From a virus: a DNA stretch of 53,802 nucleotides. How positions within the stretch are numbered: position 1 is the first letter of the stretch; each line of letters starts with the position of its first letter. Under the pieces are notes generated by a model. The model searched no databases, was not told where the DNA came from, and was given only the letters and a program-made list of their open reading frames with translations. The stretch is taken from positions 1 through 53,802 of IMG/VR virus record IMGVR_UViG_3300030107_003607, one strand, 5' to 3'. Position numbers and translations under genes: made by a program. Shown one piece after another: positions 2 to 46,665 of the stretch.

Positions 2-1285
2 AAAACTTATACTCTTATGTCAGGCGAAAAAGAGATGGGTAAACTTACTGAAACAGAACTAAAAGATTTCTTTGATAATAATAAAGTTTCAGTATCTTCT
101 AATGGTGTATTATATCGTAGTGATAAGAAAGGATTGATTCCGGCTCTGTTAGAAAAGTGGTTCGATACTCGTGTGGAGTATAGAAAGTTGATGAAGAAGT
201 TCGGTGATGCTGGTGATAATGAGAAGTATACTTACTTCAAAAGTCGTCAGTTAATTCAAAAGGTGGTTCTAAATTCATTATATGGTGTATTAGGTTTGCC
301 AGTATTTAGATTCTATGACTTAGACAATGCTGAGGCTACCACACTTACAGGTCAAGAACTAATTAAGTTTACCAAAAAGATTGGTAATCATTTCTACAAC
401 AAAGAGTTGGGAGATAATAATGACTATTGTATTTATATTGATACTGATTCAGTTTTCTATTCAGCGCTTCCATTAGTTAAGAAAAGATTTCCTACTATGG
501 ACTTCGATAGTGAGACTATGATGAGTAAGAGGATATTGGATGTGGCTGATGAGATGCAGGGATTTCTGAATAAGTCTTATGATTACTTTGCCAAAAGGTT
601 TTTGAATTTGGATAAACATAGATTTGAGATAAAGCAGGAATTGATTGCTAAGAGTGGTTTGTTTATTGTGAAGAAACGATATGGTATGAAGATTATCAAT
701 GACAATGGAGTAAAGGTAAACAAACTGCATGTCAAAGGATTGGACTTAGTTCGTAGTAATTTTCCTAAGGCTATGGGTGAGTTATTAAAAAGTGTATTAG
801 AGGATATTCTGGCAACTGTGCCAAAGGATAAGATAGATGAGAGAATTATAAATTTTAAGGAATCTATGAAGTTGGTAGACTTCGATAGGATAGCGATGCC
901 AACTGGTATAAATAACTTAAAGAAATACTCAGATGGTAAGATGGGTAAGTTTACAAAGTTTGCCAAAGGTGCACCAGCTCATATCAAAGCCGCTATAACT
1001 TATAATGATTTACTAAGACATTTCGGAGTTGGTAAAAAATATGAAAAGATAAGTAACTCTGAAAAGATAAAGTGGGTTTATCTAAGACAAAATGATTTAG
1101 GATTAGAGTCTTGTGGATATAAAGGTTATGAAGATCCACCACAAATAATAGAATTTATTAAAACTAATATTGACTACAAAAAGATGTATGCTCAAATGTT
1201 AGAGAAAAAGATAATGATGTTTTATGATTCATTGAAGTGGAATGAGCCAGTAAATAAAAAGACATCTATGGAAAGATTTTTTTGA
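2..1285 (+). CDS. 43: Family-B DNA polymerase, C-terminal part (gp43-like), cut by window edge
   Basis: This is the replicative DNA polymerase of the phage, lacking its N-terminal exonuclease part because the window begins inside the gene; the frame is open from base 2. Seen: polymerase motif B (KVVLNSLYGVLG) followed about 50 residues later by motif C, YIDTDS, which carries the two metal-binding aspartates of family-B polymerases. A long lysine-rich thumb region follows and the protein ends in KKTSMERFF. T4 gp43-type polymerases end in a short clamp-binding peptide containing aromatic residues, and the final RFF fits that role. The sliding-clamp gene follows 57 bp downstream, as expected for a T4-like replication block. 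The identity is secure; the ATG at base 17 is probably an internal methionine. Confidence 0.95.
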   Translation, partial: KTYTLMSGEKEMGKLTETELKDFFDNNKVSVSSNGVLYRSDKKGLIPALLEKWFDTRVEYRKLMKKFGDAGDNEKYTYFKSRQLIQKVVLNSLYGVLGLPVFRFYDLDNAEATTLTGQELIKFTKKIGNHFYNKELGDNNDYCIYIDTDSVFYSALPLVKKRFPTMDFDSETMMSKRILDVADEMQGFLNKSYDYFAKRFLNLDKHRFEIKQELIAKSGLFIVKKRYGMKIINDNGVKVNKLHVKGLDLVRSNFPKAMGELLKSVLEDILATVPKDKIDERIINFKESMKLVDFDRIAMPTGINNLKKYSDGKMGKFTKFAKGAPAHIKAAITYNDLLRHFGVGKKYEKISNSEKIKWVYLRQNDLGLESCGYKGYEDPPQIIEFIKTNIDYKKMYAQMLEKKIMMFYDSLKWNEPVNKKTSMERFF

Positions 1286-1320: not shown

Positions 1321-1342
1321 AAAAACTACATAAGGAGTGAAA

Positions 1343-2059
1343 ATGAACAAACATTCATTAAGCCGCTTTATTGATAAGTACTATCTTGGCGGAAATTGTT
1401 CATCGGTTGTAATTAATAGTAAAGGAGATTCTCTTTCTACTAGATTTATTACTGGTGATAAAAATTTACTTGGAGAACTAACTATGTCAGGTTGGAAGTT
1501 CGATGAGGCTGATTTAGGTGTATATAATACAGAGCAGCTTGTTAAACTACTTTCAGTTCTGTCAGAGAATATCACAATGAATCTTACTAAAGCTGGAGAT
1601 AAAGCAGTATCTCTTAAAATATCAGATAGTAAATCTGATGTTAATTATATGCTTTCAGATTTATCTGTTATTAGTTCGCCACCTAATCTTAAATCTATAC
1701 CTGATTTTGAGGTAAAGATAAAAGTCGATAAGTCTTTTATGCAGAAGTTTATTGCTGGTAAAAGTGCTTTGGCTGATACTGATAATTTTACAGTATTGAC
1801 TAACGATGATGGGGTAAAGGTTGTGATTGGTTATGCTGAGATTAACACTAATCGTGTTACTCTTCCTGTGGAAACAGAATCTTATGATAAGATTGATAAT
1901 GTATCTTTCAATGCTAATCTATTCAGAGATGTATTGGTTGCAAACAAAGAGTGTGAGGGTGCTACATTAGAAGTAAGTTCAGGCGGTTTGGCTAGAATCA
2001 ATTTTAAAGTTGATGAGTATAATGCCACATATTACTTAGTTGCTGAACAAGATGTGTAA
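1343..2059 (+). CDS. 45: Sliding clamp, DNA polymerase processivity factor (gp45-like)
   Basis: Predicted ring-forming sliding clamp that tethers the phage polymerase to DNA and, in T4, also acts in late transcription. It is 238 residues against 228 for T4 gp45. Composition is typical of clamps: many short alternating strands, a basic N-terminal start (MNKHSLSRFIDKYY), a central linker and a C-terminus ending in a strand (YYLVAEQDV). The call rests on this pattern plus position between polymerase and clamp-loader genes. ATG 1343 is chosen because AAGGAG (1332-1337) overlaps the in-frame GTG at 1337, so GTG cannot be the start. The stop codon TAATG overlaps the next ATG, indicating translational coupling to the Mom-like gene. 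Confidence 0.88.
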   Translation: MNKHSLSRFIDKYYLGGNCSSVVINSKGDSLSTRFITGDKNLLGELTMSGWKFDEADLGVYNTEQLVKLLSVLSENITMNLTKAGDKAVSLKISDSKSDVNYMLSDLSVISSPPNLKSIPDFEVKIKVDKSFMQKFIAGKSALADTDNFTVLTNDDGVKVVIGYAEINTNRVTLPVETESYDKIDNVSFNANLFRDVLVANKECEGATLEVSSGGLARINFKVDEYNATYYLVAEQDV

Positions 2060-2823
2060 TGGAAGAATATGTAGATAAGTCTAGAGTATCCGTTAGACCA
2101 ATCTATAAACCATTGGCTAAGGATATAATAGAAAAAAACCATTATAGTGGTAGGTTGTCATCTTGTCGCTATCCTCTTGGAATCTTTTATCAAACTGATA
2201 ATGAACACAAATTCTTTGCAGAAGCTGAAGAGAAACTTGTGGGAGTTGCATGTTATGGTTTTCCTGTTGGAAGAAGAGTTCTCGGTTCTATCTTCTCTGA
2301 AGAAATATTAGAGAATAAAAACATATTAGAACTTACGAGACTCTTCATCCACGATGGATATGGCAAAAATATTGAGTCTTTGGCATTGGGATTGACTTTC
2401 AAATGGTTGAAAGAGAACGCTCAAAATATAAAGGTTCTAATATCTTATGCTGACCCTGAACAATCACACGATGGTGCTATCTACCAAGCAACTAATTGGA
2501 TATATCAAGGTTGTGGTGCTTTTCAAATGGCGCCAACCTATTCTCTGAGATTAGAAGAAGATGGAGAATGGATACATAGTAGAAGTGTTTATTCTAAATT
2601 TGGTTCATCAGATCCTAAGAAAATGGTTAAGGCTATTGGACACGACTTTTGGTTGAAGAAAGAAGCTAGTAAACATAGATACATTTACTTTCTTGGTAAT
2701 AAAAAAGAGAATAGAAAATTTCATAGTGTTATGAAACATCCTGAAATGGACTATCCTAAAAACTATAAACACGATATTGAAATAACAAAAGTAGAGGTTA
2801 ATAACGAAAAATGGAAAGATTAG
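2059..2823 (+). CDS. Mom-like DNA-modification protein (copy 1)
   Basis: This 254-residue protein resembles the Mom family. Phage Mu Mom has a GNAT-like fold and converts adenine in DNA to N6-(carbamoylmethyl)adenine, blocking many restriction enzymes. Visible landmarks are NHYS at about 27-30, ELTRLF (91-96), SYADP (129-133) and YQATNWIYQG (142-151), then KHRYIYFLG near 208-216. The copy at 37613-38398 shares all of these in the same order, and the shorter one at 5206-5838 shares a subset. The gene sits inside the polymerase-clamp-loader cluster, overlapping the clamp stop by 1 bp and the loader start by 13 bp, so it is probably co-expressed with replication. The modification it makes here is inferred from family resemblance, not shown. 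Confidence 0.78.
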   Translation: MEEYVDKSRVSVRPIYKPLAKDIIEKNHYSGRLSSCRYPLGIFYQTDNEHKFFAEAEEKLVGVACYGFPVGRRVLGSIFSEEILENKNILELTRLFIHDGYGKNIESLALGLTFKWLKENAQNIKVLISYADPEQSHDGAIYQATNWIYQGCGAFQMAPTYSLRLEEDGEWIHSRSVYSKFGSSDPKKMVKAIGHDFWLKKEASKHRYIYFLGNKKENRKFHSVMKHPEMDYPKNYKHDIEITKVEVNNEKWKD

Positions 2824-3749
2824 ATAATACCTTATGGGTTGAAAAGTATCGCCCTAATTCACTTGAATCTTATATAGGAAATGAACATCTAAAAAGTAAG
2901 GTTAAGGTTTATTTAGAGAGTGGGGATTTGCCACACCTTTTATTATATGGTAGGGCAGGTACAGGTAAAACCACTCTTGCTAAATTGCTTGTCAATAATA
3001 TAGATTGTGACCACTTATATATTAACGCTTCAGATGAGAATAGTGTTGATGTAGTTCGTAATAAGGTTCGTGGTTTTGCTTCTACTATTGGATTCAAAGA
3101 TATGAAAGTTGTTATATTAGATGAGTGTGATTATATCACACCTAACGCACAAGCGGCTTTGCGTAACCTTATGGAGACTTTTTCTAAACATACTCGTTTC
3201 ATATTGACTTGTAACTATGTAGAAAGGATTATCGATCCAATACAGAGTCGTTGCCAACCATTTCAGATAGTACCACCATCAAGAAAAGAAGTTGCTATTC
3301 ACCTAAACGAAATCTTAAAAGGAGAGGGTGTTGGGTTCGAAGTTGATGATGTAGCTACATTGGTTAATGGTGGCTATCCTGATATTCGTAGAGTTATAAA
3401 CTTTGCTCAAAGGCAAGTAGTTGATGGTAAGTTGTCAATCGACCAAGATAATTTAGTTGCAGTTGATTTGAATGTAAATGTATTTTCTACTCAAGTTGTC
3501 AATGTATTGAAAACACAAAGTAAGAAAGACGCTTTTGTGACTATAAGAAAGATGTTAGGTGATAATCAAATATCAGACTTTGCTGATGTGTTCCGTTTGT
3601 TGTATGATGAAGTTGATGATTATGGTAAAGGACACGTAGCAGAATGTATATTGACTATTGCTAAATATCAATTATCAGATGCGCAGGTTGTTGATAAAGA
3701 AATAAATGTGATGGCTATGATGATAGAATTGTTGGGAATTATAAAATGA
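2811..3749 (+). CDS. 44: Clamp loader ATPase large subunit (gp44-like)
   Basis: AAA+ ATPase that, with the small subunit encoded at 4748-5203, opens the sliding clamp and loads it at primer-template junctions. Seen: WVEKYRP at 9-15, typical of RFC/gp44 N-termini; Walker A GRAGTGKTT (about 47-55); Walker B VVILDECD (about 100-107); sensor-1-like LTCNY; and the SRC arginine-finger motif (about 146-148) characteristic of clamp loaders. Length 312 residues compares with 319 for T4 gp44. It overlaps the upstream Mom-like gene by 13 bp and the downstream kinase gene by 4 bp (ATGA), so it is read as part of one coupled operon. In T4 the order is 43-62-44-45; here it is 43-45-44-62 with inserted genes. 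Confidence 0.95.
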   Translation: MERLDNTLWVEKYRPNSLESYIGNEHLKSKVKVYLESGDLPHLLLYGRAGTGKTTLAKLLVNNIDCDHLYINASDENSVDVVRNKVRGFASTIGFKDMKVVILDECDYITPNAQAALRNLMETFSKHTRFILTCNYVERIIDPIQSRCQPFQIVPPSRKEVAIHLNEILKGEGVGFEVDDVATLVNGGYPDIRRVINFAQRQVVDGKLSIDQDNLVAVDLNVNVFSTQVVNVLKTQSKKDAFVTIRKMLGDNQISDFADVFRLLYDEVDDYGKGHVAECILTIAKYQLSDAQVVDKEINVMAMMIELLGIIK

Positions 3750-4513
3750 GGGTGTTAGTAATCGGAGATAGTTGCCAAGATATATTTGTTTATGGTGATA
3801 TAGATAGGATATGTCCTGAAGGACCTGTTCCAGTGTTCAATAGAGATTGGGAAAAGGGTAATAATGGGATGGCTCTGAATGTAGTGGCTAACTTAGAATC
3901 ATTGGGTGCTGAAGTAAAATATGTCACTAATCAAGTGGGTATAGTTAAAACCAGATATGTTGATAAACGCTCCAACCAACTTGTTATGAGAGTCGATGAC
4001 AATGATAGATGTGATAGGATTGAAAAGGATTATTTATATAAGATAAGAAATAATGCTGTGGGTGATTGGAAGTTTGATGCTTTAGTGGTTGCTGATTATA
4101 ACAAAGGATTTTTAGATGAGGAAGATATAGCTTACCTTTGCCAAAACAACACTAATGTATTTATAGATACAAAGAAACCAATCGATGAATATATGACAGA
4201 GTGTTCTTATATAAAGATAAATGAATTAGAATACAAAGCTATTAAAGAGAATGCTATAACTAATTGGTATGATGATAAATTAATAGTTACTCTCGGAGAA
4301 GATGGATGCCAGTATGATGGAAAAATATACGACACAACTAAAGTTACAGGAGGAGATGTATCAGGCGCAGGAGATACTTTTATGGCGGCTTTAGTTGTGA
4401 AGTATGGTGAGACTAATAAAATACAAAGGGCTATAAAGTATGCTCTAAAAGCAGCTACCGAAGTAGTTAAAAAAAGTGGAGTTTCAACAATTACTAAAGA
4501 GGAAATAAAATGA
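3746..4513 (+). CDS. PfkB-family sugar kinase, HldE/RfaE kinase-domain-like
   Basis: A ribokinase-fold carbohydrate kinase most like the N-terminal kinase domain of HldE (RfaE), which phosphorylates D-glycero-D-manno-heptose 7-phosphate at C1 in ADP-heptose synthesis. Seen: the N-terminal block RICPEGPVPVF (21-31), parallel to ERISPEAPVPV in HldE; GMALNVVANLESLG (41-54); VVADYNKG (114-121), parallel to VSDYGKG; and the PfkB signature DVSGAGDTF (204-212) with catalytic base Asp210. At 255 residues it is a stand-alone kinase lacking the adenylyltransferase half of HldE. It sits in the clamp-loader cluster, 12 kb from the HldD-like epimerase at 15880. Another PfkB substrate is possible, but the heptose-type motifs make this the best call. 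Confidence 0.8.
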   Translation: MRVLVIGDSCQDIFVYGDIDRICPEGPVPVFNRDWEKGNNGMALNVVANLESLGAEVKYVTNQVGIVKTRYVDKRSNQLVMRVDDNDRCDRIEKDYLYKIRNNAVGDWKFDALVVADYNKGFLDEEDIAYLCQNNTNVFIDTKKPIDEYMTECSYIKINELEYKAIKENAITNWYDDKLIVTLGEDGCQYDGKIYDTTKVTGGDVSGAGDTFMAALVVKYGETNKIQRAIKYALKAATEVVKKSGVSTITKEEIK

Positions 4514-4761
4514 GTATGAAACCAATGAAACCAATAAACAAACCAACATCAAATGTAAATGTTACTATGGGAGATACAGAACCATTTGTATGTGAGGATT
4601 GTGGTAATGCTGTATTTATACCAGCAGTATTTCTAAGGAGATTGTCGCCAATCGTATCACCTACAGGTAAAGAAGCTATGATTCCAATACAGGTTTATAG
4701 TTGTGGTAATTGTGGTAAAGTTCCAAGCACATTAATGAAGGAATTTGATGGCGAAAGTTAA
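4510..4761 (+). CDS. Small zinc-ribbon protein
   Basis: An 83-residue protein with two CxxC knuckles, CEDC near residue 28 and CGNC near residue 64, the arrangement of a zinc ribbon. The N-terminus is short, basic and methionine/proline-rich (MSMKPMKPINKP). It overlaps the kinase stop by 4 bp and runs into the clamp-loader small-subunit start, so it belongs to the replication operon. Function is not recognised; DNA- or protein-binding is the usual role of such ribbons. Confidence 0.75.
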   Translation: MSMKPMKPINKPTSNVNVTMGDTEPFVCEDCGNAVFIPAVFLRRLSPIVSPTGKEAMIPIQVYSCGNCGKVPSTLMKEFDGES

Positions 4762-5203
4762 AAAGAAAAGTTTATTCGATCACGTTAATGCTGTCACGAG
4801 TCAGCAACATCCTAATTATTGGGATGAGATTTCTGATGATGACAAAAAGTCGTGGTCAAATTTTATGGTTAATAGGTTTCTTTCTATGAAGCCTGAGTGG
4901 ATAGAACTTGTGAATGAGGTTCAGAAATATCCACTAAAACCAAAAGAGCTATATAAAGTTTATATAGATTTTTTACCAAAGAAGAAACAATGGTTAAAAT
5001 ATATCAAAGGAGATAAAAAGATGAAATATCCAAAATGGGTATTAGAAATAGTTTCTAAACATTTACAATGTAGTGTTAGAGAAGCGAGTGACGCCGTAGA
5101 GATGTATGAAATATCAGCTGGCGGACAATCGGAATTAGCAGATATTTTAGGAAAGTATGGAGTTGAACAAAAGGAGATTCGTAAGCTCGGTTTAATATCA
5201 TAG
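4748..5203 (+). CDS. 62: Clamp loader small subunit (gp62-like)
   Basis: Predicted partner of the gp44-like ATPase, forming the fifth subunit of the loader. Seen: SLFDHVNAV near the N-terminus, then FMVNRFLSMKPE, matching the FMVNxxLSxxPE pattern of gp62 proteins, then a basic FLPKKKQWLKY segment equivalent to the PRGKRYGKW region of T4 gp62. Length is 151 residues against 187 for T4. The ATG at 4748 is preferred over the in-frame TTG at 4745 because AAGGA lies 5 bp upstream of it. Position two genes after the gp44-like gene supports the call. Confidence 0.82.
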   Translation: MAKVKKKSLFDHVNAVTSQQHPNYWDEISDDDKKSWSNFMVNRFLSMKPEWIELVNEVQKYPLKPKELYKVYIDFLPKKKQWLKYIKGDKKMKYPKWVLEIVSKHLQCSVREASDAVEMYEISAGGQSELADILGKYGVEQKEIRKLGLIS

Positions 5204-5205
5204 AA

Positions 5206-5838
5206 ATGAGCGTAAAGAACTTCACAGTTGAAGAAGTACCTAGAAAATCAGTAGTAAAGTTTATAGAGAAACATCACTATTCACACAATGTAAATGGTGT
5301 CCAATCTTTATATCATTATGGATTATTTACAGAGGGAAATTTCGGAATACCTAAAATGATTGGGGCTATGATGTATGCTCATCCATCAATGCCAGCTACA
5401 GCAGCTAAATACAATCCAATTAATCCCACTAAGTGTTTAGAACTTAGAAGATTAGTTTGTATTGATGCCACACCTAAAAACACAGAAAGTTTTTTTATAG
5501 GACAGACATTTAAATTACTAAAAAGAGATACAGATATGGAAGTTATAGTTTCGTTTGCTGACCAACATCACGGACATACGGGTGTGATTTACAAAGCTAC
5601 TAACTTTGATTATTTAGGTGAGACATCGAGAGGTAGGATACTAATGGTAGATGGTAAAGAAATGCATAGTAGGTCTTTGAATCAATTAGACAGGCCGTAT
5701 GGAAGAGAATTAAAACGAAGATACGAAGCTGGTGATGAAAATATATTTTGGAAGAACACAAAACCAAAGCATATTTATGTATACTATCTTAATAAAAAAA
5801 TTAAAAGACAAATAAAAAAGCTTGACTTGTATACATAA
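5206..5838 (+). CDS. Mom-like DNA-modification protein (copy 2, short form)
   Basis: A 210-residue relative of the Mom-like genes at 2059 and 37613. Shared landmarks: HHYSHN at about 23-28, LELRRLV in the middle, SFADQHHGHTGVIYKATNF (equivalent to SYADP...GAIYQATNW in copy 1), and a C-terminal KHIYVYYLNKK like KHRYIYFLGNK. It is more diverged and lacks the C-terminal tail of the other two. It follows the gp62-like gene by 2 bp. The promoter at 5822-5851 lies within its last codons, so transcription of the next gene starts inside this one. Target and chemistry are inferred from the family only; it could have a different specificity. Confidence 0.72.
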   Translation: MSVKNFTVEEVPRKSVVKFIEKHHYSHNVNGVQSLYHYGLFTEGNFGIPKMIGAMMYAHPSMPATAAKYNPINPTKCLELRRLVCIDATPKNTESFFIGQTFKLLKRDTDMEVIVSFADQHHGHTGVIYKATNFDYLGETSRGRILMVDGKEMHSRSLNQLDRPYGRELKRRYEAGDENIFWKNTKPKHIYVYYLNKKIKRQIKKLDLYT

Positions 5839-5851
5839 AAATGTGTATATT
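5822..5851 (+). promoter_or_regulatory. Sigma70-type promoter A of the repeated family
   Basis: -35 TTGACT (5822-5827), 18-bp spacer, -10 TATATT (5846-5851), preceded by an A-run and followed by TATAC in the spacer start. It matches the other family members at 36483, 42790, 44092, 48319 and 48890 in spacing and flanking bases. It begins within the end of the second Mom-like gene and would drive the Nmad1-like gene at 5875. Confidence 0.82.
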
Positions 5852-5874: not shown

Positions 5875-6276
5875 ATGAGTAATATAAAAGAATCTAAAAA
5901 CAAAAAAGAGGTAAATTCTTATTTAACAGGTGATAATGGTGACATTGTAACAATGATGGAAAAAGAATGGCCACAAATGACGGCTGAGTTTCGTAAATTA
6001 CAAAGAGAACAATATGAGTTGTTCTTACACAAACAACACGACTACGGTCCAGGTAATATTTCAGTTGGAACACAATTACAAACACCCGAAGAGATACAAT
6101 TATCTCTTACAGGTCTATGGTTCAGAATGAATGATAAGATACAGAGACTAAAGAATTTATTGATGAGTGGTCGTGAAAATGCTGTAGAAAATGAACCGAT
6201 GGAAGATGCTTTTCTTGATGTATCCAACTATGGTATTATGGCTACAATCGTAAAGAATGGTAAGTGGGGTAAGTGA
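5875..6276 (+). CDS. Nmad1-like nucleotide-modification-associated protein
   Basis: A 133-residue protein resembling the nucleotide modification associated domain 1 family, reported by comparative genomics near phage DNA base-modification genes. Seen: HDYGPGNIS near residue 56, GLWFRMNDKIQRLKNL near 81, and ENEPMEDAFLDVSNYGIMA near 105; this spacing of HDYG, a basic amphipathic helix and the E-x3-D-x3-D-x2-NY block is the family pattern. Biochemical function is unknown; related all-alpha pyrophosphohydrolase folds suggest nucleotide metabolism. It has its own promoter (5822-5851), and a run of coupled genes follows. Its place next to Mom-like genes supports a role in modified DNA synthesis. 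Confidence 0.75.
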   Translation: MSNIKESKNKKEVNSYLTGDNGDIVTMMEKEWPQMTAEFRKLQREQYELFLHKQHDYGPGNISVGTQLQTPEEIQLSLTGLWFRMNDKIQRLKNLLMSGRENAVENEPMEDAFLDVSNYGIMATIVKNGKWGK

Positions 6277-6413
6277 TGGCAAAGTATAAACCTAAATACA
6301 GACTTGAAGTGGAAGAAGGTCACTACGAAAATGATAATTTGTTTTTCTTAATATGTCAGGTGTTACTACATAGATTCTGGCATTTAATTAATTATGGCGA
6401 ATGGGCTGATTAG
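6276..6413 (+). CDS. Small hypothetical protein, 45 residues
   Basis: Short ORF coupled on both sides: its ATG overlaps the preceding TGA (TGATG) and its TAG overlaps the GTG start of the nuclease gene (TAGTG). It begins MAKYKPKYRLEV, then an acidic stretch and a hydrophobic aromatic segment (FFLICQVLLHRFWHL). The coupling suggests that it is translated. Function not recognised. Confidence 0.6.
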   Translation: MAKYKPKYRLEVEEGHYENDNLFFLICQVLLHRFWHLINYGEWAD

Positions 6414-7279
6414 TGAATAAGATAAGTTATAGTCAATATTCAATGTGGGCTCAATGTCCACATAGATGGAAAACTGCGTATGTAGATGGTAAGAGAGAGT
6501 ATACAGAAAGTATACATACTCTTTTTGGTACATCGATGCACGAAGTTATACAGACATTTCTAACTGTTATGTATGAAGATACTGCCAAAGCAGCTGAAGC
6601 TCTACCATTACCTGAAATGTTAAGAATTAGAATGAAGAGAAATTACGAAGATGCCCTAACAAAGAATGGTGGTGTTGAGTTCTGTACTCAAGCTGATATG
6701 GTAGAGTTTTACAAACACGGATTACTGATATTAGATTTCATAAAAAAGAAAAGAGCTCAATACTTTAGTAAGAAAGGTTATGAGTTAGTTGGTATAGAAG
6801 TTCCTTTGGAATATGATTTGCCAAATGGTGTTAAGTTTATTGGTTATATCGATGTAGTAATTAGAGATACAGTTAGAGATGTAATTAAGATATATGATAT
6901 AAAGACTTCCACTATGGGTTGGAACAAATATATGAAGGCTGATAAAATCAAAACAGACCAATTATTATTATATAAACAATTCTATTCAAAACAATTTAAT
7001 CATCCAATGGATAGGATAGAAGTTGAATACTTTATTGTAAAAAGAAAATTATATGAGAACTTAGACTTTCCACAAAAGAGAGTTCAGAAGTTTGCACCTG
7101 CAAATGGAACACCATCTATTAACCAAGTCACAAAAAGATTGAGTGAATTTATGGAAGAATGTTTTAAACCTGATGGAGAATACAACACCGAGCATATTTA
7201 TAGTAAAGTGGCATCTAAGAAAAATTGCAGATTTTGCGATTTTAATCAAACAGAATATTGTGACGCAGGAGTTAAGTGA
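6413..7279 (+). CDS. PD-(D/E)XK nuclease with Fe-S cysteine cluster (Cas4/AddB-like)
   Basis: A RecB/Cas4-type nuclease likely to process phage or host DNA ends during replication and recombination. Seen: an N-terminal SQYSMWAQCPHRWK with Cys15, the FGTSMHEVIQ helix, the catalytic pair GYIDVVI...IYDIKTS (D-x-K motif), and a C-terminal CRFCDFNQTEYC giving three more cysteines; together these four match the 4Fe-4S ligand set of AddB/Cas4 nucleases. The start is GTG at 6413 overlapping the preceding stop. The 288-residue length fits a single nuclease domain without a helicase. Its location next to modification and replication genes fits, but its exact substrate is not known. Confidence 0.85.
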   Translation: MNKISYSQYSMWAQCPHRWKTAYVDGKREYTESIHTLFGTSMHEVIQTFLTVMYEDTAKAAEALPLPEMLRIRMKRNYEDALTKNGGVEFCTQADMVEFYKHGLLILDFIKKKRAQYFSKKGYELVGIEVPLEYDLPNGVKFIGYIDVVIRDTVRDVIKIYDIKTSTMGWNKYMKADKIKTDQLLLYKQFYSKQFNHPMDRIEVEYFIVKRKLYENLDFPQKRVQKFAPANGTPSINQVTKRLSEFMEECFKPDGEYNTEHIYSKVASKKNCRFCDFNQTEYCDAGVK

Positions 7280-18570: not shown

Positions 18571-19757
18571 TGAAAATATATTGTATACTAATGGATACAG
18601 TTCCGAGAGATGGAAGAATAGTAAATGCTTTTCGCAGTAAAGGAGTGGAATTTTCAGACCACATAACTTGTAGCTCTACTGTACCAACTCTTATAACTAT
18701 GTTTAGTGGTAAGACACCAACGGAGATGTACGGAATAGGTGGAGTTGGTCACTCACATACATACGATAGATTAGTATCAGATAAAAAAGTGTGGGATGAA
18801 CAGATGTTATTTCATATGATTCCTGATGATTGGGCGATACATATTCATTCAATGCCATTGACTAGAGGAGACCACGGAACAGGTGATGTTTCTAATCCTA
18901 GTTTCAAACTTTTACCTGATGATATATGTGGTAGAACAAATAATATGCGATATTATAATTACGATGATTCGCACGATGAAGATAATTTTATGAAGAAGAT
19001 GCAAAATATACCAAAAGTTAGAGTAGGTCCTGATTTGAAAATAGATGAAAAATTTGATAAAGATACAAATCATCTTATAGTTTTGAAGTGGAATCATTAC
19101 CACGATGCTTCTAGAGGTAAATTTATTAAATATGGTGGAACTGATATTCCATCTACTTCAGATGCTATAATAGATATGTACGCTGATATGATAAAACAAA
19201 TGGATTTTGAAGAACCAGATTCTTTGTTTTGGGTATTTGCAGACCACGGAGAACCACATAATATTAGTGAGATGATGCCACCACCAGATTCTTGGTTGGC
19301 TTGGTGTGGTGTTAAAGATAATATATCTAATCAAAAAGTAACTAAAAAAATAATAGGATGTGATGATTTTAAGAACACAGTTCTAAATAGAGTATACGAT
19401 ACAAGTAAGGAAGATGAAGAATATATCCCTTTACCAAATGATGTTTTGTCAGATTTGGATATGAATAGAATTTATGTTCGTGAAGATGGAAGAAGTGCTG
19501 TTAGCCCTAACTTTGCTTCAACAGTATCTGCTATAAAGGCTTTGGATGAACATCGGTATATACAATATGTAAATCATTCACCAAACGCACATAAAAGACA
19601 ATTTCATAATCAAGAAGAAAGAATTATTATCTATAACAAAACAGAAAATACTATCGATACACCAAATGTACCACAATATCACATTGGTGCAGAATTAAAA
19701 CAACATCTTTTGGATGGGCCTTGGGAATGGTATTTTAGGAAAACAGCTGATGAGTGA
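18570..19757 (+). CDS. Alkaline-phosphatase-superfamily (sulfatase-like) protein, candidate glycan-modifying transferase
   Basis: A 395-residue soluble member of the superfamily containing sulfatases, phosphoglycerol and phosphoethanolamine transferases. Seen: an N-terminal metal-site strand (YCILMDTVPRDGR), SSTVPTLITMFSGKTPTEMYG with the Thr/Ser nucleophile region equivalent to sulfatase/LtaS-type xxPSRAxLLTG, and FADHGEPHN near residue 228, the DHGE metal-binding motif. There are no transmembrane segments, unlike LtaS or EptA. It overlaps by 8 bp the start of the PEP mutase fusion, so transfer of an activated phosphonate to a sugar, or hydrolysis of such an ester, is an attractive but unproven job. 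A sulfatase role is the alternative. Confidence 0.72.
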   Translation: MKIYCILMDTVPRDGRIVNAFRSKGVEFSDHITCSSTVPTLITMFSGKTPTEMYGIGGVGHSHTYDRLVSDKKVWDEQMLFHMIPDDWAIHIHSMPLTRGDHGTGDVSNPSFKLLPDDICGRTNNMRYYNYDDSHDEDNFMKKMQNIPKVRVGPDLKIDEKFDKDTNHLIVLKWNHYHDASRGKFIKYGGTDIPSTSDAIIDMYADMIKQMDFEEPDSLFWVFADHGEPHNISEMMPPPDSWLAWCGVKDNISNQKVTKKIIGCDDFKNTVLNRVYDTSKEDEEYIPLPNDVLSDLDMNRIYVREDGRSAVSPNFASTVSAIKALDEHRYIQYVNHSPNAHKRQFHNQEERIIIYNKTENTIDTPNVPQYHIGAELKQHLLDGPWEWYFRKTADE

Positions 19758-21033
19758 TGTTTATGTTGGAATGTGTGCTGATTTAATTCATCACGGACAT
19801 CTTAATATAATAAAGGAAGCTAAAAAATACGGAGATGTTACAGTTGGTTTACTTACTGATTCTGCTATAGCTAGTTACAAAAGACTACCTGCTTTAAGTT
19901 ACGAAGAAAGAAAAATAGTTGTAGAGAATATAGTCGGTGTCAGTAAAGTTATACCACAAAAGACATTGGATTATATACCTAATATAGAAGAACTAAAACC
20001 AAAATATGTGGTGCACGGAGATGATTGGAAAGAGGGAGTTCAAAAGCAAGTTAGGCAAGGAGTGATTGATAAATTAGAAGAGTGGGGTGGTGTAGTTATT
20101 GATGTTCCATACACAAAAGGAGTATCATCTACTAAATTACATAATCACTTAAAAGAAATTGGAACTACTCCTGATGTAAGAAGAAAGATGTTGAAAAGAT
20201 TGATAGAGTCGAAACCGATAGTGAGAGTTTTAGAAGCTCACAATGGATTGACTGGTTTGATTGTAGAAAAGACAAAGGTTGGTAATGATGAGTTTGATGC
20301 TATGTGGTTGAGTAGCCTAACTCACTCAGCATCTAAAGGTAAGCCAGATAATCAGTATGTAGATATAACCACAGTTAGTCAAACTTTGAGTGAGATATTT
20401 GATGTGACAACAAAACCAATGATTGTCGATTTGGATAATGGTGGGATGATTGAACATTTTAAGTTTACGATAAGAACTTTAGAACGAATGGGTGTATCTT
20501 CAGTAATAATTGAAGATAAGATTGGTTCAAAAAGAAACTCTCTATTTGATGATACTTCCAATCAAACGCAAGATAAACCAAGTGAATTTGCCAATAAAAT
20601 ATTAGAGGGTAAGAAAACATTAGTTACAAAAGACTTTATGATTATAGCTCGTATAGAAAGTTTTATTTTAGGAAAGGGAGTTGTTGATGCTATTGATAGA
20701 GCTTATCTTTATATAGATAGTGGAGCTGATGGTATTATGATTCATAGTAAGAGTGAAGATGTTTCTGAAATACTATCTTTTTGTGAACACTATAAAAAGT
20801 TTAAGAAAAAAGTTCCTTTGGTAGTTGTACCATCTACTTATAATAAAGTGGTAGAAAAACAATTAATTGATATTGGAGTTGATGTGGTTATTTATGCTAA
20901 TCATTTATTGAGAAGTTCTTATCCAGCGATGATTGATACTGCTAAATCAATTTTAGAAAATAAAAGGTCTTATGAGGCTAGTAAAAATTGTCTACCAATA
21001 AAAGAAGTATTGGAGTTAATACCAAATGATTAA
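19750..21033 (+). CDS. pepM: Bifunctional nucleotidyltransferase - phosphoenolpyruvate mutase
   Basis: The entry enzyme of phosphonate biosynthesis: PEP mutase isomerises phosphoenolpyruvate to phosphonopyruvate, forming the C-P bond. The 427-residue chain has an N-terminal cytidylyltransferase-type domain (HxGH as HHGH, 14-17; VHGDDW 88-93; ISSTK-like VSSTK 125-129) and a C-terminal PepM domain with WLSSLTHSASKGKPD (186-200), the Mg-site DLDNGG (227-232) and the diagnostic EDKxxxxxNS as EDKIGSKRNS (255-264). Such fusions are known in bacterial surface-phosphonate clusters, where the nucleotidyltransferase is thought to activate the phosphonate with CTP. ATG 19750 is used because the conserved DVYVGMCADL begins there; the in-frame ATG at 19714 lies in the upstream gene. 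Confidence 0.95.
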   Translation: MSDVYVGMCADLIHHGHLNIIKEAKKYGDVTVGLLTDSAIASYKRLPALSYEERKIVVENIVGVSKVIPQKTLDYIPNIEELKPKYVVHGDDWKEGVQKQVRQGVIDKLEEWGGVVIDVPYTKGVSSTKLHNHLKEIGTTPDVRRKMLKRLIESKPIVRVLEAHNGLTGLIVEKTKVGNDEFDAMWLSSLTHSASKGKPDNQYVDITTVSQTLSEIFDVTTKPMIVDLDNGGMIEHFKFTIRTLERMGVSSVIIEDKIGSKRNSLFDDTSNQTQDKPSEFANKILEGKKTLVTKDFMIIARIESFILGKGVVDAIDRAYLYIDSGADGIMIHSKSEDVSEILSFCEHYKKFKKKVPLVVVPSTYNKVVEKQLIDIGVDVVIYANHLLRSSYPAMIDTAKSILENKRSYEASKNCLPIKEVLELIPND

Positions 21034-21415
21034 ACTCAAATCAGTTATAGATGATGGTTATAATTTCTTCACAGGCGTACCCGATAGTGGATTGAAACCT
21101 TTTATCAAAGAGATACAAAAATCAGAATTTGAACACATACCTGCAACTAATGAGGGGCAAGCGATTGGAATTGCAGTCGGTGCAGAATTAGCTGGTATGA
21201 AAAGTTGTGTCTACCTACAAAACTCAGGTCTTGGTAATTGTATAAATCCATTGACAAGTCTATGTATGCCACACAATATACTTCCATTGTTGGTAATAGG
21301 ACACAGACATACTTTGCCACAACACGCAGTAATGGGTAGGGTGGATAAACAAATGTTAGACCTAATCGGTTATTGGAATTATATAATAGTGGATGGAGAC
21401 AATAATGTCAAGTAG
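21026..21415 (+). CDS. ppdA: Phosphonopyruvate decarboxylase, PYR-domain subunit
   Basis: First half of a thiamine-diphosphate enzyme that decarboxylates phosphonopyruvate to phosphonoacetaldehyde, pulling the unfavourable PEP mutase reaction forward. Seen: FFTGVPDSGLKPF near residue 14, PATNEGQAIGIAVGAELAG near 39 with the catalytic glutamate that activates the cofactor, and LQNSGLGNCINPLTSL near 64; all are hallmarks of the N-terminal PYR domain of Ppd. At 129 residues it is only the PYR half; the PP half is the next ORF. A two-subunit arrangement is known for the related sulfopyruvate decarboxylase ComDE, but the PepM neighbour argues for phosphonopyruvate. Confidence 0.9.
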   Translation: MIKLKSVIDDGYNFFTGVPDSGLKPFIKEIQKSEFEHIPATNEGQAIGIAVGAELAGMKSCVYLQNSGLGNCINPLTSLCMPHNILPLLVIGHRHTLPQHAVMGRVDKQMLDLIGYWNYIIVDGDNNVK

Positions 21416-21860
21416 AAAAGGAGCAATAAAATTTATCTTTGAGAGACATCCCGATGCTATATTCGTAACCAACACAGGTTATATATCTAGAGCAGTTTAT
21501 GATATGTATCCAAAGAATAAGAATATATTTTATATGCAAGGTAGTATGGGATTGGCTCCGTGTATCGGATTGGGAATGGCTCTTAATACAGATAAAGAGA
21601 TTGTAGTTTTAAGTGGTGATGCTGCTCTGTTAATGCACTTAGGAATAACTCACACTATAGCTGACAGAGAGTTGGGTAATCTTTTTGTATATGTTTTAGA
21701 TAATGGATGCCACGAATCAGTTGGTGGATTCTTCAGTTCTCAATTGGAAGATTCTTATTTAGGTATTGATGATATAATTCCAATTAGCAAAGATGGTAAA
21801 AAGGGAAGAGTAGAATTAGATTGTGAAAAGAATACAAAACAAATAAAGGAGTTATTTTGA
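21405..21860 (+). CDS. ppdB: Phosphonopyruvate decarboxylase, PP-domain subunit
   Basis: Second half of the decarboxylase, binding the diphosphate end of thiamine diphosphate. Seen: FVTNTGYISRAVYDM near residue 20, FYMQGSMGLAPCIGLGMAL near 42, and the ThDP-binding motif GDAALLMHLG...DNGCHESVGG near 73-106 (GD-x(n)-N). The start at ATG 21405 has GGAG 6 bp upstream; the gene overlaps the PYR subunit by 11 bp in another frame. In most bacteria both domains form one chain of about 380 residues, so the split is either native or came from a frameshift. Overlapping reading frames with good motifs in both favour a working heteromer. Confidence 0.9.
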   Translation: MSSRKGAIKFIFERHPDAIFVTNTGYISRAVYDMYPKNKNIFYMQGSMGLAPCIGLGMALNTDKEIVVLSGDAALLMHLGITHTIADRELGNLFVYVLDNGCHESVGGFFSSQLEDSYLGIDDIIPISKDGKKGRVELDCEKNTKQIKELF

Positions 21861-22642
21861 GAGGATATAATGGTACACTATTAGTATGCTCGGAGTCTAC
21901 TAAAAAATTTATAAATGGTTTTGATAAAGTTAGAGTTGTAAAAGGAGCTCCTGATGCCACTATTTTAGATGAGGTTGGTGCTTATGAAAAGGTTACTGCG
22001 ATAGGTGGTGGTGCTGTGATAGATACAGCGAAGATATTGGCTAAGAATCCTATAGTTTGCTATCCAACCACAGCAGCTGGTTCTACAGAAACTTCTTGGT
22101 CTGTTTATTGGGATGGTAGTAAGAAATGTAGTATAAAAAGACACAAGCCAAGAGATGTTATTATAAATTCAGAGTTTTTAGATTTACCATATAGTGTTGT
22201 GGCTGAGACTACATTTGATGTCGTAAGTCATTGTTTGGATAGTTTAAATTCAAAGAAATCTACAGAAGAAAGTATTGGTTATTGTAACAGAGCTCTAAAA
22301 ATATTAAGAAATAGAGGTAGAGGTAATGTTGATTTAATAAGAGCTGGTCGTGAAGCAGGAAAAGCTATAGAAATTGCTGGCACTAATTTGTTACATTCCC
22401 TTTCTTATCCTTTAACAGGATACTATAATGTATCTCACGGATTAGCTTTAGGCTATTTCTTACCAAAGATTTCAAAACTTATGAATAATGATGTAAGTGA
22501 TATAATAGATGAATATGAAAACTTTACATTTGATTTTAATATTGATATGGAAATGGTAATAGATGAAGCTCTAAAATATGACAAGATTAATGAGAGTAAG
22601 ATATTTATAGATAAGAAAGTTTTACAGGAGGTTTTAGTATGA
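21857..22642 (+). CDS. Iron-containing alcohol dehydrogenase, probable phosphonoacetaldehyde reductase
   Basis: A group III (Fe-dependent) alcohol dehydrogenase, predicted to reduce phosphonoacetaldehyde to 2-hydroxyethylphosphonate. Seen: the nucleotide-binding loop IGGGAVIDTAK (49-59), PTTAAGSTE (70-78), and the complete metal set in family spacing: Asp121-x3-His125 and His180-x13-His194. At 261 residues it is shorter than the usual 380, trimmed at both ends, but the active-site core is intact. The start is TTG 21857 behind AAGGAG, overlapping the upstream stop. Reductases of this family (PhpC type) act after PepM and Ppd in hydroxyethylphosphonate pathways, so substrate is inferred from gene order. 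Confidence 0.85.
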   Translation: MRGYNGTLLVCSESTKKFINGFDKVRVVKGAPDATILDEVGAYEKVTAIGGGAVIDTAKILAKNPIVCYPTTAAGSTETSWSVYWDGSKKCSIKRHKPRDVIINSEFLDLPYSVVAETTFDVVSHCLDSLNSKKSTEESIGYCNRALKILRNRGRGNVDLIRAGREAGKAIEIAGTNLLHSLSYPLTGYYNVSHGLALGYFLPKISKLMNNDVSDIIDEYENFTFDFNIDMEMVIDEALKYDKINESKIFIDKKVLQEVLV

Positions 22643-28216: not shown

Positions 28217-28943
28217 GATATTAATCACAGGTGGTGATGGAGAATTTTGTAAACATTTAGTTAAGCAAGGAAAAGATTTTTCTTTTCTAACACCATCAAA
28301 AAAAGAAGCTGATATAAGTGACTATTGGAAATTAGATAGATATTTTTATACACATCAATTTGAATTTGATATTGTTATTCACGCAGCGGCTATAACAAGA
28401 CCTATGGTTATACACGAAGATAATCCAAAGTTGAGTATAAAAACAAATATAATTGGTACTTCCAATGTGGTTTTGATGTGTGAAAGATATAACAAAAAAA
28501 TAGTCTACATTTCTACTGATTATGTTTATGATGGGATAGATGGAAACTATAAAGAAACTGATGCTATGAAACCATTCACAAAATATGGTTGGTCTAAATT
28601 GGGTGGAGAATGTGCAGTACAAATGTGGGATAATCATTTAATACTTAGGATGGCTATGAATAAAAAACCATTTCCACATCCAAAGGCTTTGAAAGATATG
28701 AGAAAGAGTCTTATGTACATTGAAGATGCTGCTAAGGTTACTCTAAAGTTGTTAGGAGAAAATGGTATAATAAATGTAGGTGGTAAATCACAATCTGTTT
28801 ATGATTTTGTAAAAGAAGAAAATCCTAATATTGAACCTATTTATTTAAAAGATATATCTGATGTCAATATGGCTACAGATTGTTCTATGGATACAACAAA
28901 AATGACAAAGGTTATTGATGATTCAACTGTTCAACATAAATAA
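28209..28943 (+). CDS. RmlD-like NAD(P)-dependent sugar reductase/epimerase
   Basis: A 244-residue extended SDR resembling dTDP-4-dehydrorhamnose reductase. Seen: ILITGGDGEFCKHL at the start, DIVIHAAAITRPM near 55-67, YISTDYVYDGIDG near 97 and TKYGWSKLGGE near 118 with the Tyr-x3-Lys pair. The C-terminal substrate part is shorter than in RmlD (about 300). It probably reduces a 4-keto sugar produced by the upstream enzymes. It overlaps the aminotransferase start by 26 bp. Confidence 0.85.
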   Translation: MSKILITGGDGEFCKHLVKQGKDFSFLTPSKKEADISDYWKLDRYFYTHQFEFDIVIHAAAITRPMVIHEDNPKLSIKTNIIGTSNVVLMCERYNKKIVYISTDYVYDGIDGNYKETDAMKPFTKYGWSKLGGECAVQMWDNHLILRMAMNKKPFPHPKALKDMRKSLMYIEDAAKVTLKLLGENGIINVGGKSQSVYDFVKEENPNIEPIYLKDISDVNMATDCSMDTTKMTKVIDDSTVQHK

Positions 28944-32014: not shown

Positions 32015-32917
32015 ATGAAAGTATTAATAACAGGTGGAACTGGAACTGTAGGTAGAGCTTTAATCGCACAAAACGATAATGATTATATCAGTATCAGTAG
32101 AAATGAAGAGAACATAGCCAATCTAAAAAGGGAGTATCCAAGTGTCAAATGTTATGTTGGTAATATAGAAGATAAGTCTTTACTACTCAGAGTATTTAAA
32201 GAGGTAAAACCTGATGTAGTGGTTCACGCAGCGGCTATGAAACATATTGATTTGATGGAACAGAATCCAATCGCTGGCTGTAATGTAAATGTGATGGGTA
32301 GTTTGAATGTGGTAGAGGCTAGTGTTATAAATGATGTTCCAATCACAATTGGTGTCAGTACAGATAAAGCTTGTTTATCAGAAAGTGTATATGGCGCATC
32401 TAAATACCTAATGGAGAGAGTCTTTATGAATACTAATACAGATGAGAATAGATTTTCATTGACTAGATTTGCTAATGTGGCTCATAGTGCTGGTTCAGTA
32501 TTACCATTTTGGTTGAAGTTAAAGAAAGAAGGAAATCCACTTAAACTTACAGACCCTAATATGAACAGATTAATATTCACCAAAGAAGATGCTGCTAGTC
32601 TAATCAATAGAACAATTGATTTTACTAAAGAAAATGGTGGTGGTTTTGTAAAGTCGTATAAGATGAAATGTGTGAATATGCTTGATTTAGCTAAAGTTAT
32701 TTCTGATGATATAGAGGTAGTTGGTAAAAGGCCTGGTGAGAAAACAGATGAGGATTTAATATCAGAAAGAGAAATATCTCGCACCTTTATCTATGGGGAT
32801 GATATTCATATTAGGATGGAAAAAAATAAAGACAATAATAAATTATCAGAACCTTACAATTCTGCTAGTGCAGAACATATGACAAAAGAAGAGATTGAGA
32901 AGTTAGTATGGGGATAA
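32015..32917 (+). CDS. PseB/CapD-like NDP-sugar 4,6-dehydratase
   Basis: A 300-residue SDR of the Polysacc_synt_2 type (UDP-GlcNAc 4,6-dehydratase, inverting or retaining). Seen: VLITGGTGTVGRAL (3-16), VVHAAAMKHIDLMEQNP near 70-86, GVSTDKACLSESVYGASKYLMERVF near 113-137 with catalytic Tyr-x3-Lys, RFANVAHSAGSVLPFW, NRLIFTKEDAASLI, and GKRPGEKTDEDLISE, which is strongly diagnostic of PseB/CapD proteins. It would make a 4-keto-6-deoxy-HexNAc nucleotide, feeding aminotransferase-type enzymes. The ribosome site is TAGGAG. Confidence 0.9.
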   Translation: MKVLITGGTGTVGRALIAQNDNDYISISRNEENIANLKREYPSVKCYVGNIEDKSLLLRVFKEVKPDVVVHAAAMKHIDLMEQNPIAGCNVNVMGSLNVVEASVINDVPITIGVSTDKACLSESVYGASKYLMERVFMNTNTDENRFSLTRFANVAHSAGSVLPFWLKLKKEGNPLKLTDPNMNRLIFTKEDAASLINRTIDFTKENGGGFVKSYKMKCVNMLDLAKVISDDIEVVGKRPGEKTDEDLISEREISRTFIYGDDIHIRMEKNKDNNKLSEPYNSASAEHMTKEEIEKLVWG

Positions 32918-37448: not shown

Positions 37449-37616
37449 ATGAGTAAATTAACTAAAGAACAACAAAAAGAATTAGAAATACTAGCAGCCG
37501 AAATAGAGGCTGAGGCTATTCAAATGAAAGTGGACTATGAGAATCATCCATCAGATATGAGTGGAAGTATAGTAGTCGTACACGAAGAATCGGAATACTT
37601 AGACGAGGAAGAGTGA
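37449..37616 (+). CDS. Small acidic protein, 55 residues
   Basis: ORF coupled to the following Mom-like gene (GAGTGA: its TGA overlaps the GTG start). It has a helical, acidic N-terminal half (KEQQKELEILAAEIEAEA) and an acidic end (EESEYLDEEE). It could be a regulator or partner of the Mom-like protein, but this is only a positional guess. Confidence 0.55.
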   Translation: MSKLTKEQQKELEILAAEIEAEAIQMKVDYENHPSDMSGSIVVVHEESEYLDEEE

Positions 37617-38398
37617 AACAATATGTAGACACATCTAAACTATCTGTCAGAGAAATAGATAGGAAGATTGCTAAAAAATTAATAGTTGAGAATCATTACT
37701 CACACCAATGGACAAAGTGCACTCACGCATTAGGTTTATATACCACAACAGGTAGAGAACACTCATTCTTCGATGAACCTGAAGAGAAACTTATTGGTGC
37801 TATATGTTATGGAGACCCAATAGGTAGAAACTCTGGCGCTTCAATATCATTAGCAGTACCGAGAACAGCAGTATTTGAGTTGGTAAGGTTATTTGTATTC
37901 GATGGTTACGGAAGTAATATAGAATCCTATTTGATAGGAGAAAGTTTTAGATGGTTGAAGAAGAATAGGCCAGACATAAAAGCTCTTATATCATATTCAG
38001 ATCCAATGCAAGGTCACGTTGGAACTGTATATCAGGCAACTAATTGGTTATATCAAGGTAATAATATAAGGTGGACAGATAGTTGGTTATTTAAGTTTGA
38101 AGAGGATGGTAAGTGGCAGCACGGAAGAACCATATTTCCTTATTATGGAACTAATGACATAAAGAAAATGAAAGGGTTGGTTGAGAAAGATTTTTGGATA
38201 AAGAAAGAAGTGAAGAAACACAGATATGTTTATCTATTAGGAACAAAAGGTGAAAGGAAGAAAGCGTTAAAGAAAGTAAAACATCCAATACTACCATATC
38301 CTAAAACATCGGATATGATAGAGTCGGAAGTAATAAAAGTAAAAGTTCATAACTTTGGTAAGATTAAAGGAGAACAACAATGGAATGGTCAACAATAG
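37613..38398 (+). CDS. Mom-like DNA-modification protein (copy 3)
   Basis: A 261-residue protein colinear with copy 1 at 2059-2823: NHYS at 27-30, FELVRLF, DGYGSNIES, SYSDP, GTVYQATNWLYQG, KKEVKKHRYVYLLGTK and a PYPK tail all align in order. It starts at GTG 37613, overlapping the upstream stop. A C-terminal extension (VKVHNFGKIKGEQQ) goes beyond copy 1. Family knowledge: phage Mu Mom makes N6-(carbamoylmethyl)adenine, masking DNA from restriction. A third copy 32 kb away from the other two suggests either different target sequences or different timing; whether it is active is not shown. Confidence 0.76.
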   Translation: MKQYVDTSKLSVREIDRKIAKKLIVENHYSHQWTKCTHALGLYTTTGREHSFFDEPEEKLIGAICYGDPIGRNSGASISLAVPRTAVFELVRLFVFDGYGSNIESYLIGESFRWLKKNRPDIKALISYSDPMQGHVGTVYQATNWLYQGNNIRWTDSWLFKFEEDGKWQHGRTIFPYYGTNDIKKMKGLVEKDFWIKKEVKKHRYVYLLGTKGERKKALKKVKHPILPYPKTSDMIESEVIKVKVHNFGKIKGEQQWNGQQ

Positions 38399-45599: not shown

Positions 45600-45712
45600 G
45601 ACCCAAAATGTTAGATGAAGTTATTAAACGTAGAAATGAGAATATCAAAGTTCTCTTAATAGCCGTAGTGAGCTTTTTAATAGGATTAGTAATGGGAGTT
45701 ATGTCAGTATGA
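45596..45712 (+). CDS. Membrane micro-protein, 38 residues
   Basis: AAGGAG (45588-45593) sits 2-3 bp before ATG 45596. After a charged helix (LDEVIKRRNENI), one membrane span follows (VLLIAVVSFLIGLVMGVM). It is coupled to the UVDE gene by a 4-bp overlap. Function unknown. Confidence 0.55.
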   Translation: MRPKMLDEVIKRRNENIKVLLIAVVSFLIGLVMGVMSV

Positions 45713-46665
45713 ATATAGGATACGCTTGTATTAATATGCAATTGTCTTACCCACAAAAGTATGGTGGTGCTGAGAAAGGAGTTAAACCAATCACTACAGG
45801 CCGTAGTATGATTAAACGAACCTTTCAATCTAAAGGTTTGGATTATGCTAGTGAACTAACACTAGCCAATTGTATGGACTTAGATAAGATTGTAGATTGG
45901 AATATACTAAATAACTATAAGTTCTTTCGTATCACATCAGGCCTTGCACCGTGGAAGTCTGAATATGAGTGGGATGATTTGAAAGATATATTTAGGATTA
46001 AAACACATTTACGTTCCGCTGGCATAAAAGCTAAGACTCACAATCTTCGTATCACATCTCATCCAGGTCCATTCAATGTTCTTACCTCACCACACCCACA
46101 CGTTGTAGATAATTGTATTAGTGATTTAACCGACCACGGTAGTGTGTTTGATATGATGGGGTTGAGTAGAACACCTTACAACAAAATTAATATTCATATC
46201 GGTGGTGCTTATGGAGATAAACCAGCTGCTATGGAAAGATTTTGTAAAAACTTTGAAAGACTACCTGAATCAGTTCAGAGTAGATTAACAGTAGAAAATG
46301 ATGATAAAGCATCAATGTATTCAGTAAAGGAGTTATATTATGGAGTGTACAAGCGTATTGGCGTGCCCGTCGTGTTTGACTACCATCACCACAGGTTTTG
46401 TGATGGTGGGCTTAGTGAACAAGAGGCTTTGGAAATGGCTATATCAACTTGGCCGAAAGACATTGTACCAGTTGTCCACTACAGCGAAAGTCGCAGTAAG
46501 GAACGACTTGACGAGTCAATTAGACCTCAAGCCCATTCTGATTATGTCTACGATTATATTGACACTTATGGTAATGATGTTGATATTATGATTGAGGCAA
46601 AACATAAGGAGTTAGCGGTTCTAAAGTATTTAGAACTACACGGCCACTTAGATGGACTATCCTAA
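45709..46665 (+). CDS. uvsE: UV-damage endonuclease (UVDE/UvsE-like)
   Basis: A TIM-barrel, metal-dependent endonuclease that nicks DNA 5' to UV photoproducts and some other lesions. Seen: NIGYACINMQL at the start, FFRITSGLAPW near 72 (family RxSSxLxPW), NIHIGGAYGDKPAAMERFCKNFERL near 163, RLTVENDDK near 194 with metal-binding Glu, VVFDYHHHRFC near 223 (catalytic HHH cluster) and VVHYSES near 257. Length 318 fits the family. Common in phages of sunlit waters. It overlaps the sulfotransferase gene by 14 bp. Confidence 0.93.
   Translation: MNIGYACINMQLSYPQKYGGAEKGVKPITTGRSMIKRTFQSKGLDYASELTLANCMDLDKIVDWNILNNYKFFRITSGLAPWKSEYEWDDLKDIFRIKTHLRSAGIKAKTHNLRITSHPGPFNVLTSPHPHVVDNCISDLTDHGSVFDMMGLSRTPYNKINIHIGGAYGDKPAAMERFCKNFERLPESVQSRLTVENDDKASMYSVKELYYGVYKRIGVPVVFDYHHHRFCDGGLSEQEALEMAISTWPKDIVPVVHYSESRSKERLDESIRPQAHSDYVYDYIDTYGNDVDIMIEAKHKELAVLKYLELHGHLDGLS

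Follow-up and report, generated by a model that had tools for sequence, protein, structure and literature searches.

The Mom enzyme of phage Mu, which is encoded in the com-mom operon, adds a carbamoylmethyl-type group to adenine N6 in DNA. To our knowledge, little is understood of how phages keep the modification of newly made DNA ahead of restriction. Five momylation enzymes are encoded by the jumbo phage PA5oct (PMC7824862). The T4 DNA polymerase gp43 binds the sliding clamp through its C-terminal tail, and highly similar, interchangeable tails are carried by gp55 and gp33 (PMC2988020), in both of which an LDFL motif is found (PMC9690074); a crystal structure exists of the RB69 clamp together with the 11 C-terminal residues of the RB69 polymerase (PMC2988020), and in eukaryotes DNMT1 binds the clamp PCNA (PMC9690074). 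Here we describe the T4-like phage record IMGVR_UViG_3300030107_003607 (the window analysed is the whole 53.8-kb record, 53,802 nucleotides (nt)), in which two genes of the Mom family, MomA and MomB, lie within the replisome operon and a third, MomC, lies elsewhere. The interpretation we consider fairly probable is that Mom-type adenine modifiers are made together with the replisome, that the junctions around the clamp gene form a swap site for such enzymes, that tailed enzymes of related phages probably ride the clamp, and that the Moms of the window are coupled to replication most likely by co-expression.

All three genes score 150-158 bits against the Pfam Mom profile PF25680 (150-151 for MomA and MomB), for which the curated cut-off of 27.1 bits served as the threshold, and MomA and MomB also match phrog_1384. 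For the AlphaFold models of both proteins the top structural match is 8bv8, the crystal structure of Mu Mom (titled as the inactive mutant S124A), with ordinary GNATs next. The Mu residue S124 corresponds to Ser107 in MomA, Ser95 in MomB and Ser105 in MomC and is identical in 74/74 aligned rows, as are, in Mu Mom numbering, H58/Y59, E108, L109, R111, N121, E123, S146, Y159 and N163, whilst D149 is kept in 73 of the 74; the invariant H-Y, E-L-x-R, N-x-E-S, S, Y and N residues are thus shared with Mu Mom. Profile, fold and active site together support the Mom genes of the window as genuine members of the family, and by analogy with Mu their chemistry would be the transfer of a carbamoylmethyl-type group to adenine N6. 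Unlike Mu, the window has three copies in two deep lineages, MomA and MomC being sister lineages on the Mom tree and MomB falling in a separate clade. The ratio of nonsynonymous to synonymous substitution (dN/dS) of MomA and MomC against their relatives is ~0.04-0.08, and both are under purifying selection; the ratio was unusable for saturated pairs, among them all MomB pairs tried. In many other phages (loci are given L numbers here; L043-L082) a MomC-like and a MomA-like gene stand in tandem away from the clamp, and the recurrence of this pairing suggests that the two lineages work together. One MomA (L171:5197-5960) is split into two overlapping frames, through a frameshift, a sequencing error or decay of the copy.

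At the left end of the window the genes run polB, sliding clamp, MomA, gp44, a sugar kinase, a zinc-ribbon open reading frame (ORF), gp62, MomB, DUF1599 and PD-(D/E)XK. The initial annotation had placed two Mom-like genes in the clamp/clamp-loader cluster, coupled to their neighbours and flanking a gp44-gp62 pair, and had looked to structural models for a Mom/GNAT fold. MomA and MomB are indeed intact ORFs with profile matches far above the cut-off, and the models of both find Mu Mom first. The close coupling is equally borne out, as the clamp stop and MomA start share 1 base (TAATG), the last 13 nt of MomA lie within gp44, and 2 nt separate the end of gp62 from MomB. MomA does precede gp44 and MomB does follow gp62, but the two clamp-loader genes are split by the kinase and zinc-ribbon genes, and MomC had been absent from that finding. 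A scan for promoters and terminators returned 41 against 43.6 expected from shuffles, with fair -35/-10 boxes only at 5822-5851, between MomB and nmad1; as there is no excess, the operon structure rests on gene overlaps rather than promoters, and the Mom genes are presumably co-transcribed with the replisome genes. This differs from the com-mom operon of Mu in that two copies are placed in a replisome operon and no Com match is found. As in the jumbo phages there are several Mom paralogues in one phage, but in the window they are free-standing genes next to those for clamp and clamp loader.

Searches with MomA and MomB recovered the order clamp-MomA-gp44-...-gp62-MomB in dozens of independent contigs, and because of this conservation, together with the purifying selection on MomA and MomC, the arrangement is not attributable to chance; an old and recurrent placement of Mom in the replisome operon is supported. 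The related phages are metagenome contigs, many of them apparently marine judging by context. The closest annotated isolate found by gp44, Microcystis phage Mel-JY01, has the order polB-clamp-gp44-small ORF-gp62-...-PD-(D/E)XK, but its polB/clamp and clamp/gp44 junctions are both empty.

To avoid picking loci by Mom, relatives were sampled by gp44 from four branches, which gave 227 loci with clamp and gp44 and 94 representatives after clustering at 95% gp44 identity. A Mom gene lies in the polB/clamp or clamp/gp44 junction of 23 representatives and DNA methyltransferases lie there in 18-19; among close relatives the occupants are Mom, N6/N4 methyltransferases (PF01555; MTa, MTb and MTc in the Table), a Dam methylase, or none. 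On a gp44 tree of 93 rows the Mom label changes 13 times, starred branches requiring at least 10 of these changes, and for the methyltransferase label there are 10 changes (at least seven required), both labels being clustered relative to shuffles. Neighbours on the tree may have unlike content, as with L334 (MomA), L338 (MTc), L340 (MTa) and L443 (MomA), or with L404 (MTc), L406 and L219 (both MomA) and L196 (empty). Modification enzymes are 43 of the ~93 occupants of the polB-gp44 junctions as opposed to 2 of ~67 in the gp44-gp62 junctions (p ~2e-10, which is indicative since the rows are related). The polB/clamp and clamp/gp44 junctions are a swap site for DNA-modification enzymes in this phage group. 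The earlier suggestion that modification is tied to DNA synthesis is supported, since in close relatives these two junctions are taken by DNA-modification enzymes of other kinds.

The second link to replication lies in the C-termini. The PolB tail consensus of the group is K-T-S-[I/M]-E-R-F-F, and the PolB of the window ends in NKKTSMERFF. When a C-terminal pattern for this tail was run over 3,765 distinct plus-strand ORFs from all loci, 138 matched, of which 126 were PolB. The remaining 12, as opposed to 0.04 expected by composition, comprised seven Mom, four MTc and one Dam; all are DNA-modification enzymes encoded immediately before the clamp, and lie in the polB/clamp junction wherever the contig extends to polB. 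With a slightly wider pattern the tail, in the form S-M/I-E-K/R-F-F, was present at every polB/clamp-junction locus with a MomA-type gene (12/12), an MTc (6/6) or a Dam (2/2); examples are NKKIKSMEKFF (Mom, L406), NNNSSTLEKFI (MTc, L193) and NYRDVKKTSIEKFF (Dam, L299). Outside that junction, relatives of Mom, MTa, MTb, MTc and Dam carried it in 0/235 distinct C-termini; most Dam relatives found elsewhere stop at or close to ...NYR, where the junction copy runs on as DVKKTSIEKFF. At the DNA level, a pattern for the tail turns up no more than once per strand, and once or never in most of 16 large relatives. L472 and L473, of another T4-like lineage, have a Dam methylase relative in the gp44/gp62 junction; it has no PolB-like tail.

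The tails of the window PolB and of the polB/clamp-junction enzymes resemble those of T4 gp43, gp55 and gp33 in being short hydrophobic/acidic peptides shared with PolB; however, the T4 users are the polymerase and late-transcription factors, whereas here they are DNA-modification enzymes for which clamp binding is predicted from sequence. Such tailed relatives probably ride the sliding clamp, much as DNMT1 rides PCNA. In both cases a DNA-modifying enzyme with a clamp-binding motif would act on newly replicated DNA, but the enzymes and clamp motifs are unrelated, the setting is a phage, and binding is here only predicted. In the window, MomA, MomB and MomC would, as Mu Mom-like GNAT-fold enzymes, modify adenine N6 in phage DNA and so presumably shield it from host nucleases and restriction. 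MomA and MomB, encoded in the replisome operon, would be made when the replication machine is, so that new phage DNA could be modified as soon as it is formed. In related phages Mom, N6/N4 DNA methyltransferases and Dam methylase replace one another at the polB/clamp and clamp/gp44 junctions, those between polB and clamp usually having the PolB-like peptide. We lean, if only slightly, towards a more physical form of fork coupling, in which the unrelated enzymes between polB and clamp (Mom, two N6/N4 methyltransferase lineages and Dam) ride the clamp through the polymerase's own tail as a viral counterpart of DNMT1-PCNA, and tail-less ones such as MomA use co-expression. A literature search, which left most subscription journals outside its reach, returned no paper on phage DNA methyltransferases with clamp-binding motifs. 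A replisome operon which swaps chemically unrelated modifiers, some of them ending in the polymerase's clamp tail, allows the coupling of modification to replication to be put to a direct test with short peptides and recombinant clamp. It also offers a positional rule for new phage DNA-modification enzymes, namely clamp-gene junctions and C-termini matching the resident PolB tail.

Several observations weigh against this interpretation. The counts come from related contig fragments sampled by similarity, such that the rows are not fully independent; the PF01555 match of MTa is just 4.6e-5, below the cut-off, with an SPPY motif; the chemistry of the window's Moms is assigned by analogy and their substrate could differ from that of Mu; the MomB-type genes in the polB/clamp junction have no tail (0/2); and the window's own Moms are tail-less, MomA ending in NNEKWKD, MomB in KKLDLYT and MomC in WNGQQ. 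Moreover, in other clades the same junctions hold unrelated cargo, namely dUTPase (one clade), GroEL, SGNH-like and glutaredoxin-like genes and a 463-amino acid (aa) protein without a Pfam family. The junctions are enriched in modification enzymes, but the idea that they are reserved for them was therefore rejected.

This cargo would be expected if the locus were instead a recombination hot spot, in which replication genes provide homology and often-swapped counter-restriction genes gather, their position owing nothing to replication coupling and the tails being by-products of exchange at the 3' end of polB. Recombination there may have supplied the tail of the polB/clamp-junction enzymes, and the MTc tail of L263 matches the resident polB without a difference over 19 nt. 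That Mom genes move is evident as well, since MomB keeps 80-81% identity in a distant clade where the identity of clamp and gp62 falls to 36-47%. However, the junctions further downstream in the operon hold cargo of other kinds, with the few modification enzymes counted above, and the SGNH-like and glutaredoxin-like cargo between polB and clamp has no tail. In the main Mom and MTc clade, furthermore, the enzyme tails (SMEKFF or STLEKFI) differ from the resident polB tails (SMNRFF or SMSRFF), so that, L263 excepted, most are not fresh polB copies, and the tail is kept while the preceding linker diverges, which suggests selection on it. A hot spot without coupling is thus a possible but doubtful account.

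The initial annotation had also raised, as an alternative, that the Mom protein travels with the clamp. The sequences support this for the polB/clamp-junction enzymes of relatives, which usually end in a PolB-like tail, but not for MomA, MomB or MomC. Direct binding of the window's MomA to clamp or clamp loader would suit the old, conserved clamp-MomA-gp44 order and the tail-bearing Mom relatives in the neighbouring junction. It is nevertheless unlikely, as Moms of the clamp/gp44 junction have a PolB-type tail in 0/98 loci and the tryptophan near the C-terminus of MomA is dictated by the gp44 start codon, which the MomA gene overlaps. The Moms of the window probably do not ride the clamp by the tail route, and the evidence favours shared expression with the replisome. 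Least probable is that the Moms and a partner nuclease attack host or rival DNA in the manner of a restriction-modification system. The Moms of jumbo phages typically carry a fused endonuclease domain (PMC7824862), and the Mom gene of Synechococcus phage DSL-LC03 overlaps a gene annotated as a type II restriction endonuclease. Those of the window, however, carry no nuclease fusion, and the nearby PD-(D/E)XK gene, which is also kept in relatives lacking Mom, resembles a phage exonuclease by its family match.

The Nmad1-like (DUF1599) gene downstream of MomB, which had been taken to strengthen a DNA-modification role, matches its profile above the cut-off, but this argument is not supported, as the gene is equally conserved in genomes lacking Mom: 31 of the 50 representatives carrying nmad1 have no Mom in the locus. 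A co-transferred MomB-nmad1 cassette was also rejected, since nmad1 keeps 72-87% identity in the distant clade whether MomB is present or not; MomB alone looks transferred.

Table. Features of the window on its replisome operon and beyond, followed by modification enzymes of related loci.
Feature	Position	Strand	Basis
polB, C-terminal part, family-B DNA polymerase (gp43-like)	17..1285	+	Presumed clamp-binding tail; ORF and PolB tail consensus of related loci, T4 precedent (PMC2988020)
Sliding clamp (gp45-like)	1337..2059	+	phrog_223, E 5e-14; ATG at 1343, preceded by AAGGAG, is a likelier start than 1337 (sequence inspection)
MomA, Mom-family GNAT-fold enzyme, clamp/gp44 junction	2059..2823	+	PF25680, E 4e-44; AlphaFold2 mean pLDDT 86.8, 8bv8 E 9e-14
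Clamp loader ATPase gp44	2811..3749	+	phrog_168, E 1e-81
PfkB/HldE domain-I-like sugar kinase, between gp44 and zinc-ribbon ORF	3746..4513	+	PF00294, 7e-17; TIGR02198, 1e-33, below its cut-off
Small zinc-ribbon protein	4510..4761	+	Weak zinc-ribbon matches
Clamp loader small subunit gp62	4745..5203	+	phrog_225, E 5e-15
MomB, second Mom lineage	5206..5838	+	PF25680, E 9e-44; AlphaFold2 mean pLDDT 89.3, 8bv8 E 1e-12
DUF1599 ('nucleotide modification associated domain 1', Nmad1) protein	5875..6276	+	PF07659, 28.1 bits, cut-off 25
PD-(D/E)XK gene	6413-7279		Phage exonuclease family match
MomC, third Mom, sister lineage of MomA	37613..38398	+	PF25680, E 4e-48; tree; residues
MTa (~410 aa)			SPPY motif; borderline PF01555
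MTb			PF01555, 3e-6 in L207
MTc			PF01555, 5e-34 (L193), 7e-28 (L263), 6e-36 (L422), 3e-47 (L338)
Dam			PF05869, 3e-23; near-identical contigs L299/L452 and L453

The kinase insertion between gp44 and the zinc-ribbon ORF is found mainly in the closest relatives and is missing from most others; an HldE-like gene lies near the corresponding place in the more distant L179. The zinc-ribbon ORF is kept across the whole phage group, including phages without Mom, and was rejected as a Com homologue as it matched no Com family at E values up to 1.

A 200-aa gene (L336:5882-6487), with relatives in L027, L044, L090, L113, L136, L157 and L158, lies mostly just downstream of MomB. The L336 protein matches DruA (PF14236) at 2e-5, just below the cut-off, and Mom weakly (0.013), and hhalign aligns it to DruA at 96% and to MomB at 87%. 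A direct match between the Mom and DruA profiles was not found, this bridging protein matching both; DruA of Druantia may therefore share ancestry with Mom. A search of the literature for such a link, from which most subscription journals were again missing, found nothing. DruA-like (DUF4338) proteins also lie in T4-like replisome junctions, in clamp/gp44 in three representatives (L370:3295-4503, L356 and L319), in gp44/gp62 in S-SSM7 (L240:7240-8382) and directly after the DNA polymerase in HTVC008M (L239:11477-12601). The latter two are annotated 'putative cytoplasmic protein' and have no PolB-like tail.

Elsewhere in the window, phosphonate biosynthesis genes at 19714-22642 include a cytidylyltransferase-phosphoenolpyruvate (PEP) mutase fusion (TIGR02320, 366.8 bits, cut-off 319.6), a phosphonopyruvate decarboxylase present as two overlapping ORFs and a shortened Fe-ADH. 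The surrounding region (8.7-36 kb) is rich in genes resembling those for glycosyltransferases, methyltransferases and nucleotide-sugar enzymes, with a PseC-like gene at 28915 and a PseB-like gene at 32015. A homologue of the UV-damage endonuclease UvsE is encoded at 45709-46665 (TIGR00629, 8e-59, above the cut-off).

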